Shown one piece after another: positions 32,215-36,415 of a stretch of 64,000 bases of DNA. The position numbers and the translations under genes are program-made. The DNA lies in contig NZ_FNKQ01000006.1 of assembly GCF_900100875.1 (NCBI RefSeq), positions 62,001 to 126,000 of the forward strand, written 5' to 3'. Source of the stretch: Halopelagius longus (GTDB lineage: Archaea; Halobacteriota; Halobacteria; Halobacteriales; Haloferacaceae). Every line of letters begins with the position of its first letter. Within the stretch, counting starts at the first letter, position 1. Under the pieces are notes generated by a model that ran no database searches, had not been told where the DNA came from, and worked only from the letters and a program-made list of their open reading frames with translations.

Positions 32215-32277
32215 ATGTACCGTTCTCAGAGGCAGTCTGCGGTCTTCGATACCGACGGAAGGAGAACGAACGAATGA
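32215..32277 (+). CDS. Candidate 20-residue leader ORF before the HprK-like gene
   Basis: The ORF reads MYRSQRQSAVFDTDGRRTNE and starts 29 nt after the TAACAA element. Its TGA overlaps the main start (ATGA). An AAGGAG sits inside the leader ORF 9 nt before the main ATG, so ribosomes could both terminate and reinitiate there. Confidence 0.35.
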   Translation: MYRSQRQSAVFDTDGRRTNE

Positions 32278-33416
32278 CACGACACTACTACGACTTCTTC
32301 GGTGACCTGCTGGTGGAGGTGGTCGGACGCGACGGCCGCACGGCCACCCAGTACCGGCGGATGTTCGACCACTTCAAAGTCTCTTCGCCCGACCGGGAAC
32401 CGGACATGGTGATTCGGGAGACGACGGACGACGTGGACCCGGAGACGGTTCTGGGCCTCCCGAACGACTACTACGGGTGGACGGGCGAGAAGTTCGTCGT
32501 CTGCAACGGCTCCGACTACATGGCGGCGCGACCCGGGTGGAACCAAGTGGACGTGACCACCGGCTTCGAACCGTTCTACCTCATCTACCCGATGGAGCTG
32601 AAGATTCGGCAGCAGAGAGTCGAACGGGAGCAGGCGCTCATCCACGCATCCGGCGTTCAGATAGAGGGACAGACGACGCTGTTTCCGGCGTGGCGCGGGG
32701 CCGGCAAGACGAACACGCTCCTCTCTCTCATCCGGCAGGGAGCGGGGTTCCTGTCGGACGACCGCCTCTGGGTCGGCGCGGACGGGTCCGCGTACGGCTA
32801 CCCCCTCGGAGTGAACCTCGGGCCGTACAACTTCGATTCGTTCCCGGAACTCGAACGCCAACAGGAGCACGACGGCCTCGAGGACAGAGTCCGTCAGGAG
32901 GTGTACGAGTTCCTCGACAAGCAGTTCGACAAGAGCGGGTCCCTGCCCGAGATGGGCATCGCCTACCTAAACGAGATGCTCCTGGCCGACGACGACCGGA
33001 CGTTCAACGACGTGGCGTCGGTGTACCCCGGCGCGGAGTTCGTCGAGGAGTCGACCGTGGACAACGTGATGTTCCTGCAGGCGGCACCGGACACCGACAC
33101 GGTAGCCGTCGAACGGATCTCGACCGACGAGGCGATGGCGGACGCCACCGCCATCTCCAACTTCGAGTGGGACGGCCGACTCCGGGAGTACTTCCACGCC
33201 TACGACTCCCTCGTCGAGGGCGGCAACATGGTCGAGACGTTAGAACAGGTCATCGAAGGCGAGCGAGCGGTGTTCCGCGAACTGTTCGAGGACGTGCCCA
33301 TCTACCGAGCGAACATCCCCCGGGTGCGTAACTGGGACGAACGCGGTCTTCACGCCGCCATGGCGGATACGGTGCAGTCGCTCGAAACGCGCGAAGCGGT
33401 ACAAACGATACACTAA
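32274..33416 (+). CDS. HprK-like P-loop protein of the glycan cluster
   Basis: A 380-residue soluble protein. Its central part resembles the P-loop domain of HPr kinase/phosphorylase: LIHASGVQIEGQTTLFPAWR leads into a Walker A, GAGKT (142-146), and then GAGFLSDDRLWVG, matching the HprK order of loop, P-loop helix and the acidic pair after the second strand. Flanking regions are not recognised. HprK-related kinases are known beside bacterial exopolysaccharide and peptide clusters, and might phosphorylate a sugar or protein. Archaea generally lack HPr, so another substrate is required. The start has an AAGGAG at 9-nt spacing and overlaps a leader ORF. Confidence 0.65.
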   Translation: MTRHYYDFFGDLLVEVVGRDGRTATQYRRMFDHFKVSSPDREPDMVIRETTDDVDPETVLGLPNDYYGWTGEKFVVCNGSDYMAARPGWNQVDVTTGFEPFYLIYPMELKIRQQRVEREQALIHASGVQIEGQTTLFPAWRGAGKTNTLLSLIRQGAGFLSDDRLWVGADGSAYGYPLGVNLGPYNFDSFPELERQQEHDGLEDRVRQEVYEFLDKQFDKSGSLPEMGIAYLNEMLLADDDRTFNDVASVYPGAEFVEESTVDNVMFLQAAPDTDTVAVERISTDEAMADATAISNFEWDGRLREYFHAYDSLVEGGNMVETLEQVIEGERAVFRELFEDVPIYRANIPRVRNWDERGLHAAMADTVQSLETREAVQTIH

Positions 33417-33773: not shown

Positions 33774-35012
33774 ATGAGCAGTGATTCCGATACCGCCCGG
33801 TTGGCCCCGACGAGACGAACGGTTCTCGGAGCGCTCGGGGCCGGTGCCGGGTTGACGGCGTTCGGTTCGGCGCTCGGTTCCGCTCAGAGTTCGGACCACT
33901 GGACCATCGTCGTACTACCGGACACGCAGATTTACGCCAAGCGCCAGTCCCCGTACGCGGGCGACCAAACGCAGTGGATAGCCGACAACCGCGACTCCGA
34001 GAACATCGCCTTCGTGACTCACGCCGGCGACGTGGTCGACCACGGCGACGTCGATGCGGAGTGGAAGCACATGGACAAGGCGTTCTCGGCCCTCGACGGG
34101 ACGGTTCCGTACTCCGTGGTTCCGGGGAATCACGACTGGGCCGTTATGGCGGACCGGACTTCCTCAAGCGCCAAGTACAAAGAGTACTTCGGCCCCTCGC
34201 GGTACCAGGGTCGAAGCTGGTTCGGCGGCGCCGGACCGACTACCGACAACCAGAACCGGGAGAACCTCAACACCTACCAGTTGTTCTCCGCGGGCGGGCA
34301 CGACTTCCTCCACCTCGGACTGGAGTGGGAACCGCCGGGGAGCACGGACGACCCGTCGACGCCCCTCGGATGGGCGCAGCAGGTACTCGACAACAACCCG
34401 GACCGACCGACGATACTCACCACGCACTCGTACCTCAAAGTTGGCGGCGAACGGGCGAAGAGCGTTCAGGAGAAGAACGGGTACGGTAACGCCGGTCAGA
34501 CCGTCTGGGAGGAACTCGTCGCGCCGAACCCGCAGGTGTTCATGGTCGTCGGCGGCCACTGGCACAGCGGAAACGACGGCGAATCACACCGGGTCTCGAC
34601 GAACGATTCCGGAGGGAAGGTCTACGAGATACTGGCTAACTACCAGGACCGGACGAACGGCGGGTACGGTCTCCTCCAACGCGTCGAGTTCCGACCGGGA
34701 GGCGGTGACCCCGACCGCATCCAGGTGCGCACCTACTCGCCCTCTCGGGACGAGTTCGAGAAGGACGGCGACAGCGAGTACGGTTTCGACCTCTCCTTCG
34801 AGGAGCGCTTCGGAACGTCCGGCGGCGACGCCGCCGGCGGCGATGTCGACGGCGACGGCGACGTCGACGACGACGACGTTGAACTCGTCCAGCGGTCGGT
34901 AGCCGGCGAGGACGTGGGTATCGACGAAAGCGCGGCGGACGTCGACGGCGACGGAGACGTCGATATCGGCGACGTCGTCTCTATTCGGGACGCGACGGAG
35001 GGTGGCAAATGA
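33774..35012 (+). CDS. Tat-exported metallophosphoesterase with C-terminal dockerin
   Basis: A 412-residue exported enzyme. A twin-arginine signal (PTRRTVLGALGAGAGLTAFG) precedes a calcineurin-like phosphoesterase domain of residues 43 to about 325: DTQ at 50-52 (Gln where His is usual), GDVVDHG near 85, GNHD at 118-121, TTHSY and GGHWHSG. The C-terminal 55 residues form a type I-like dockerin: two Ca-binding loops, each DVDGDGDVD, spaced 33 residues apart. The cohesin gene starts inside its stop codon (ATGA), so the two products are co-translated. The substrate is unknown. Confidence 0.85.
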   Translation: MSSDSDTARLAPTRRTVLGALGAGAGLTAFGSALGSAQSSDHWTIVVLPDTQIYAKRQSPYAGDQTQWIADNRDSENIAFVTHAGDVVDHGDVDAEWKHMDKAFSALDGTVPYSVVPGNHDWAVMADRTSSSAKYKEYFGPSRYQGRSWFGGAGPTTDNQNRENLNTYQLFSAGGHDFLHLGLEWEPPGSTDDPSTPLGWAQQVLDNNPDRPTILTTHSYLKVGGERAKSVQEKNGYGNAGQTVWEELVAPNPQVFMVVGGHWHSGNDGESHRVSTNDSGGKVYEILANYQDRTNGGYGLLQRVEFRPGGGDPDRIQVRTYSPSRDEFEKDGDSEYGFDLSFEERFGTSGGDAAGGDVDGDGDVDDDDVELVQRSVAGEDVGIDESAADVDGDGDVDIGDVVSIRDATEGGK

Positions 35013-36415
35013 AACGCGCGAACGCGCTCGTGGTCGCCTGCGCCCTCGTCGTTCTGGTGGGTGCCCTACCTGTGGCGGTCACCTCGGCGGGATCCGCGTC
35101 GACGACGGCGATTACGCTCGGAGACAGCGCCACCGTCACCGATGACTCCGGCGAACAGACGGTAACGATGACCGTCCGGGCGGACGCGACGGGCGTGCGC
35201 GGCTATCAGGCGAACGTCACCTTCGACCCGAGCGTCGTACAGGTGCAGTCGGTCTCGAAGAGCGAGGACTTCGCGAAACCGGTCGCGAACGTGAACAACG
35301 AGGCGGGCTGGGTCTCGTTCAATCAGATCCGCTCGTCCGAAACTGACGGCCCGGCACTGGCGACGATTACGTTCACGGTGACCGGCGACGCGGGCGCTTC
35401 CACCGAAATCTCGTTCGTCGAGGAGGACACGAAGTTCGCCGACGGAAGCGGCGAGACGTTCTCGCCGCAGGCGTACAACGGCGTGGAGGTGACCGTCGAC
35501 GATTCGACGCCGACGTCCACCCCGAACGGGACGTCTACGGTCACGTCCACCCCGAACGGTACTGCTACGCCGAACACGACCGCCACGCCGAACGTGACGT
35601 CTACACCGAACACGACGTCTACGCCGAACGGGACGTCTACGGCCACGTCCACCCCGACCGATACGCCCTCTTCCACCCCGACCTCTACGGAGACTTCGGA
35701 GGATGGCGGTGACGGCGACGCTGTCGCCGACGAGGCGAACAGTGGTGGAAACGGAGGTAACGACAACGTGAACAGCGGTGGCGGAGGCGGCGGCGACGTC
35801 AACAGCGGCGGAGACGACGATGACGACGACGACGGCGGAGACGCCGGGGGCGGCGGAGACAGCGGTTCGGTCTCCACCGGCGAACCCTCGCTTGCCGTCA
35901 CGAACGTGACTCTCAACACGTCGTCGCCGGTCGAGGGTCGCCCGGTGACCGTCTCGGCCGTCGTCGAGAACACCGGCGACGCCGACGGGAAACTCGACAC
36001 GCAGGTGTACGTCGACGAGAACGCGACCGAAGCGAACCGGACCGTCGAGGTGGCGGCCGGAGAACAGCGCGAGGTGAACTTCTCGCTCCAGTTCGACTCG
36101 CCCGGGACGCACACCGTCGCAGTCGGTAACGCCTCCGTCGGCAACGTGAGCGTCCAAGCGGCGAACGCGACGGACACTCCCTCGTCCACGGCGACGGAGG
36201 CGTCACCCGAAACGGCGGATTCGACGGTGACCCAGTCTGCGACGGCGACGTCCGCGGAGGAGTCCCCCGCGTCGGCCGCGACCGAGACCGTAACCGAGTC
36301 CACCTCGGGCGAGGAGACGTCCGGGTCCGTACCCGGGTTCGGGTTCGGCATCACCGTCGGTACCCTCGTCACCCTCGCCGGATGGGCGGGGATGCGGCGT
36401 CGGAGGGATACCTGA
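35009..36415 (+). CDS. Cohesin-domain surface protein with CARDB domain and PGF-CTERM anchor
   Basis: A 468-residue exported protein. Sec signal peptide to about residue 28; cohesin domain of roughly 30-165 (TVRADATGVRGYQANVTFDP and GPALATITFTVTG are typical cohesin strands); a Thr/Pro linker with repeated Asn-x-Thr sequons; Gly/Asn/Asp-rich spacer; CARDB-like domain of about 290-385 (LAVTNVTLNTSSPVEGRPVT); Thr/Ser-rich stalk; and a C-terminal PGFGFGITVGTLV segment with a basic end, a PGF-CTERM sorting signal for archaeosortase. It should be anchored at the surface and hold the dockerin enzyme encoded just upstream. The pairing is inferred from domains and adjacency. Confidence 0.85.
   Translation: MKRANALVVACALVVLVGALPVAVTSAGSASTTAITLGDSATVTDDSGEQTVTMTVRADATGVRGYQANVTFDPSVVQVQSVSKSEDFAKPVANVNNEAGWVSFNQIRSSETDGPALATITFTVTGDAGASTEISFVEEDTKFADGSGETFSPQAYNGVEVTVDDSTPTSTPNGTSTVTSTPNGTATPNTTATPNVTSTPNTTSTPNGTSTATSTPTDTPSSTPTSTETSEDGGDGDAVADEANSGGNGGNDNVNSGGGGGGDVNSGGDDDDDDDGGDAGGGGDSGSVSTGEPSLAVTNVTLNTSSPVEGRPVTVSAVVENTGDADGKLDTQVYVDENATEANRTVEVAAGEQREVNFSLQFDSPGTHTVAVGNASVGNVSVQAANATDTPSSTATEASPETADSTVTQSATATSAEESPASAATETVTESTSGEETSGSVPGFGFGITVGTLVTLAGWAGMRRRRDT
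35511..35690 (+). repeat. Imperfect tandem repeat coding an Asn-x-Thr sequon array
   Basis: Short repeats of the type (ACG/ACC)CCGAACGGGACGTCT encode six N-x-T sequons (NGT, NGT, NTT, NVT, NTT, NGT) about 6-9 residues apart in the Thr/Pro linker of the cohesin protein. Copy-number change by slippage is likely. The Asn residues are potential N-glycosylation sites. Confidence 0.7.

Follow-up and report, generated by a model that had tools for sequence, protein, structure and literature searches.

The gene pair and its domains

Two overlapping genes on the forward strand of the window (the whole 64,000 nucleotide stretch of Halopelagius longus DNA that was analysed) encode a metallophosphoesterase with a C-terminal dockerin and a protein with a cohesin domain. 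The first gene (33774..35012) gives a protein of 412 aa with predicted Tat export, identified from its ORF, Pfam, homologues and a structure model; the second (35009..36415) gives a cohesin and CARDB protein of 468 aa, a putative surface anchor identified from its ORF, Pfam and a structure model. A first-pass annotation of this DNA had the two genes overlapping by ATGA, and both ORFs are indeed present and have these four nucleotides (35009..35012) in common. Upstream on the same strand lies a gene for an HprK-related kinase of 380 aa (32274..33416), which a survey of homologues found to be linked to the pair in relatives.

The metallophosphoesterase domain covers aa 43-346 (33900..34811) and matches Pfam Metallophos (PF00149) with an E-value of 4.3e-14 and 53.8 bits. 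D50, D86, H120, H218 and H262 do not vary among 43 archaeal and bacterial homologues, and N119 hardly does; Q52 is also conserved, the enzyme having a Gln where the usual D-x-H has its first His. The AlphaFold model has a mean pLDDT of 90, with the domain mostly at 90 or above, and resembles Lmo2642 (VIA Z 20.7), GpdQ (19.7) and the purple acid phosphatases (about 20). By fold and by metal-ligand motifs it is thus a calcineurin-like metallophosphoesterase (PF00149), which is probably catalytically active and may act on a phosphorylated substrate at the surface or outside the cell. Orthologues were found in 26 of 391 sampled Halobacteria. The idea that the enzyme family is limited to archaea was rejected, as there are many bacterial homologues, especially in Planctomycetota; none of the bacterial homologues retrieved has a dockerin or an adjoining cohesin.

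The dockerin occupies aa 355-412 (34836..35009) and has two 12-residue calcium loops, DVDGDGDVDDDD (aa 357-368, 34842-34877) and DVDGDGDVDIGD (aa 389-400, 34938-34973), in both of which all acidic calcium positions are intact. The loop motif is found in no other ORF of at least 150 aa in the window. Pfam Dockerin_1 (PF00404) matches the whole protein at 1.3e-4 and 22.5 bits, just below the cut-off of 22.9, and in the genome scan the same dockerin scores 26.8 bits, above it; the sequence also matches solved dockerins. With its duplicated loops and profile match the domain is a type I dockerin, and the two-loop dockerin that had been read at the end of the enzyme is therefore complete. In an alignment of 24 sequences the acidic positions of loop 1 (D357, D359, D361, D363, D365 and D368) are invariant, and positions 10-11 differ between the loops, being mostly x-D in loop 1 and I-G/A/T/S in loop 2. 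A difference this consistent suggests a single binding orientation, the mode of binding not being readable from sequence alone.

The cohesin domain of the second protein (aa 42-164, 35132..35500) matches Pfam Cohesin (PF00963) at 2.8e-10, scoring 41 bits where the cut-off is 24.1. In the structure model its pLDDT is above 90, and it aligns over 127-133 residues with known cohesins, with VIA Z of 12-15 to many solved ones, including 15.1 to 4uyq and 14.3 to 2xdh of Archaeoglobus fulgidus (3.1 A over 127 residues). Profile and fold together place it in PF00963. Y66 Q67, F88, P91 and N105 Q106 are invariant in the alignment, and the conserved Y66 Q67 and N105 Q106 are candidates for the interface with the dockerin. 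The protein begins with a Sec-like signal, and the cohesin is followed by a long stalk rich in Thr, Pro, Gly and Asp, a CARDB domain (aa 293-374, 35885..36130; Pfam 2.3e-7, VIA Z 12.3 to 3idu) and a tail (36332..36412) consisting of PGF, a hydrophobic transmembrane stretch and RRRR. The earlier description of the downstream gene as cohesin plus CARDB is thereby borne out.

The same cannot be said in full of its PGF-CTERM anchor. The motif PGF, the transmembrane segment and RRRR are all there, but the window protein is missed by the curated NCBIfam model PGF_CTERM (TIGR04126), which picks up 2 of 18 relatives; the tails of all 18 have a transmembrane segment and basic residues, and 13 of them have PGF. 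As the curated model misses this tail and the PGF motif varies among relatives, the protein may be held by an ordinary transmembrane segment. An archaeosortase A gene is present in the genome (G000:C2:877667-878823), where it adjoins a gene with a strong PGF-CTERM end, and the enzyme it encodes could possibly process the tail of the cohesin protein. In Halogeometricum pallidum one copy of the cohesin gene (L077:4703-6244, G358:C21) shifts frame after the cohesin domain, with CARDB and the PGF tail lying in another frame; this genome also carries a second, intact pair (L076).

Export of the two proteins appears to follow different routes. The enzyme has PTRRTVLG at aa 12-19 of its Tat signal region (33774..33878), a S/T-R-R-x-hydrophobic motif ahead of a mild hydrophobic stretch, and is accordingly a predicted Tat substrate; the twin arginine is invariant in the alignment and the motif is present in all 24 dockerin-bearing enzymes, the match to TIGR01409 being weak (E 0.24). 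The cohesin protein has a Sec-type signal peptide region (35009..35092); each of the 24 partner cohesins has a Sec-like N-terminus, and none shows the Tat consensus. The two signal types that had been proposed from the window, Tat for the enzyme and Sec for its partner, are thus what the sequences hold, and if both signals work the two proteins would be assembled outside the cell.

Joint inheritance of dockerin and cohesin

Of 101 distinct phosphatase homologues, 24 have a dockerin and 77 do not. A cohesin gene lies directly downstream in 24/24 of the former and 0/77 of the latter, which rejects chance adjacency, and a search of all 101 for either domain kept in the absence of its counterpart found no case. 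The spacing of the two genes is also largely kept, being -4 nt in 19 of the 24 pairs and -1 nt in 2, with the remainder at 0, +2 or +6. In Haloferax, overlaps of -4 and -1 nt are known to couple translation, with an enrichment among genes for the subunits of complexes (PMC10666635), and the ATGA probably couples translation here, so that enzyme and cohesin protein would be made in proportion.

A maximum-likelihood tree was built from the catalytic domain, with the dockerin and cohesin domains left out. On this tree the joint dockerin/cohesin state changes five times, at least 3 of them on well-supported branches, and both modules change together at every such change. In Halogranum rubrum the pair is present at one paralogue and absent from another, and of the sister loci L080 and L078 the first has it and the second lacks it. 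A phylogenetic sign test gave p 0.25, a test that is underpowered because there are only 3 supported independent changes. The distances of dockerin and cohesin correlate beyond the divergence of the enzyme (partial Mantel r 0.33, p 0.0002), as co-evolving partners would give, a value that co-inheritance of adjacent genes can inflate.

It is conceivable that the two domains persist only by co-inheritance of their genes and that binding has been lost, and the title of Bayer et al. 1999 first termed the A. fulgidus modules an 'enigmatic vestige'. We regard this as highly improbable for the present pair, as the calcium ligands and the YQ and NQ positions of the cohesin are invariant across divergent sequences, dockerin and cohesin are lost together, and binding between the A. 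fulgidus cohesin and dockerin has since been demonstrated (PMC9012536, PMC9705933).

The genome from which the window comes (3.87 Mb and 99.8% complete) contains a single dockerin and a single cohesin above the Pfam cut-offs, encoded by the two adjacent genes. Models specific to this family were built from the orthologues and run on the genome; the dockerin model found its own dockerin at 1.2e-22, with the next match partial at 0.033, and the cohesin model found its own cohesin at 4.4e-56 and no second match in the genome. If the dockerin binds any cohesin of its own cell it must therefore be this one. A cellulosome, in which a scaffoldin of several cohesins gathers several enzymes, is not what a genome with one cohesin and one dockerin encodes.

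Calcium stabilises dockerin folds, and the dockerin might on that account be a calcium-stabilised tail, or a substrate-binding one, with the neighbouring cohesin having another partner or a purely structural role. Cohesins and dockerins of archaea have been on record since 1999 with no clear role, and haloarchaeal papers, among them those on glycosidases, often assign type I dockerins a part in substrate binding (PMC10963439, PMC13260240). For this enzyme such a role is unlikely, as the dockerin never occurs without an adjoining cohesin in the 24 loci, the genome offers no alternative partner for either module, and most of the longer orthologues already have a separate carbohydrate-binding domain, CBM96. 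Dockerin-less homologues (L078, L084, L085 and L091) have CBM96-like domains at the C-terminus, perhaps another means of keeping the enzyme near glycans, and in a further homologue (L093) there is instead a GH16 domain, placed N-terminally.

The linked kinase and the varying neighbourhood

A homologue of the kinase lies near 20 of the 24 pair loci within the region retrieved. It is present in 19/21 genomes with the pair and 5/370 without it (Fisher p 9e-26, uncorrected for phylogeny). Against HprK-related kinase B (TIGR04355) the window kinase scores 27 bits, far from the curated cut-off of 200, and is thus not a member, yet all 12 members of the kinase family match this model over the P-loop region, the best at 2.7e-8; judged by these matches, the kinase is related to the TIGR04355 equivalog and lies outside it. 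With the kinase alignment as query, a sequence search against solved structures gave no significant match (HprK at E 0.64).

Flippase, epimerase, aminotransferase, sulfatase and glycosyltransferase genes surround the pair in the window, and here the first-pass placement of it within a glycan locus is sound. It does not carry over to all relatives, for in Haloarcula the unit adjoins genes for EF-1alpha-type and other GTPases, whilst in others glycosyltransferase or flippase genes are found around it. A glycan locus was consequently rejected as the conserved setting, since beyond the kinase the neighbourhood varies; as far as gene order tells, the unit is kinase, phosphatase and cohesin socket, with the glycan locus only its local setting.

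The adjoining kinase is probably a functional partner that acts inside the cell. One way in which this could work is for a compound destined for secretion or for the surface (a glycan, glycolipid or small molecule) to be phosphorylated by the kinase while still in the cell and dephosphorylated by the tethered phosphatase only once exported, so that it would become active or mature nowhere but at the surface. This three-gene phosphate mask is rather unlikely.

A predicted surface tether and its known counterparts

The reading best supported by these observations is that of a co-translated enzyme and anchor which meet outside the cell, and the pair is probably a dedicated tether at the surface, with one enzyme and one socket. 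The metallophosphoesterase would fold in the cytoplasm and leave by Tat, having no anchor of its own but a terminal dockerin filled with calcium. The cohesin protein would leave unfolded by Sec and stay at the membrane by its C-terminal segment, its Thr/Pro/Gly-rich stalk and CARDB domain perhaps keeping the cohesin off the surface. Dockerin and cohesin would meet only outside, and the phosphatase would thereby be kept at the cell surface. If this is true, a folded, Tat-exported enzyme is anchored by giving the membrane anchor to a Sec-exported partner.

The pair might also bind and yet fasten the enzyme to other cells nearby, or to the S-layer or matrix, and not to the cell that produces it; CARDB domains have been linked to adhesion (PMC5244752) and the stalk is long and rich in Thr and Pro. 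Such attachment is very unlikely, given that nearly all partners checked end in a hydrophobic segment and basic residues, that is in a membrane tail, and that -4 overlaps favour production of both proteins in one cell.

Binding of archaeal cohesins and dockerins outside cellulosomes is already known (PMC9012536, PMC9705933). In A. fulgidus (2xdh) there is the same archaeal cohesin fold and a non-cellulosomal pair, for which binding has been shown (PMC9705933) whereas here it is predicted. The present system differs in that the dockerin belongs to a predicted Tat phosphatase and the cohesin to a second protein with a predicted anchor at its C-terminus; the two modules occur 1:1, their genes overlap by 4 nt, and a kinase gene is linked to them. 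The A. fulgidus genes AF2375 and AF2376 are, we presume, adjacent. The dockerin and cohesin proteins of ANME are likewise archaeal and of non-cellulolytic use, but there dockerins are numerous and a protein can have as many as five cohesins (PMC9012536), in contrast to the single dedicated pair found here. With the clostridial cellulosome the pair shares the predicted use of a cohesin to keep a dockerin-bearing enzyme at the cell surface, whilst having only one enzyme and one cohesin and no multi-cohesin scaffoldin, glycoside hydrolase, SLH or sortase anchor.

What appears to be new is a minimal, exclusive and translationally overlapping pair on a phosphatase, with strict joint inheritance, a Tat/Sec split and a linked kinase. 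A literature search, mostly outside subscription journals, found no published description of a phosphatase-dockerin/cohesin pair, and nothing on dockerins with metallophosphoesterases or cohesins with haloarchaea. A genome with one dockerin and one cohesin, on overlapping genes that are lost jointly, is the cleanest natural test case for the role of these modules.

Other haloarchaea have cohesins in quite different arrangements. A two-gene unit (L100:1108-5292, L101:2559-6699, L105:407-4562 and L102:290-6251) recurs in several genera, in which a secreted protein of about 1100-1460 aa with cohesin and dockerin (an S8 subtilase in the one scanned) is followed by a tailed cohesin protein. These subtilase units resemble the present pair in having a secreted dockerin enzyme and then a cohesin gene with a hydrophobic or PGF tail, and differ in that the subtilases bear both cohesin and dockerin, have Sec-like and not Tat N-termini, and are encoded by genes without overlap. 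There are also two haloarchaeal scaffoldins with PGF-type tails (MPGF), one of 14 cohesins (L098:5162-11425, minus strand, G208:C1) and one of 8 (L096:15566-19342, plus strand, G043:C1). Both sit in arrays with S8 subtilases that carry a C-terminal cohesin and dockerin and with small PGF-tailed cohesin proteins, arrays that are, on domain content, a predicted archaeal cellulosome-like protease complex. A paper of 2022 that cites a 2009 survey (PMC9012536) states that archaea lacked scaffoldins of this kind, ANME having five cohesins at most, and the scaffoldins of 14 and 8 cohesins may be more striking than the phosphatase pair.
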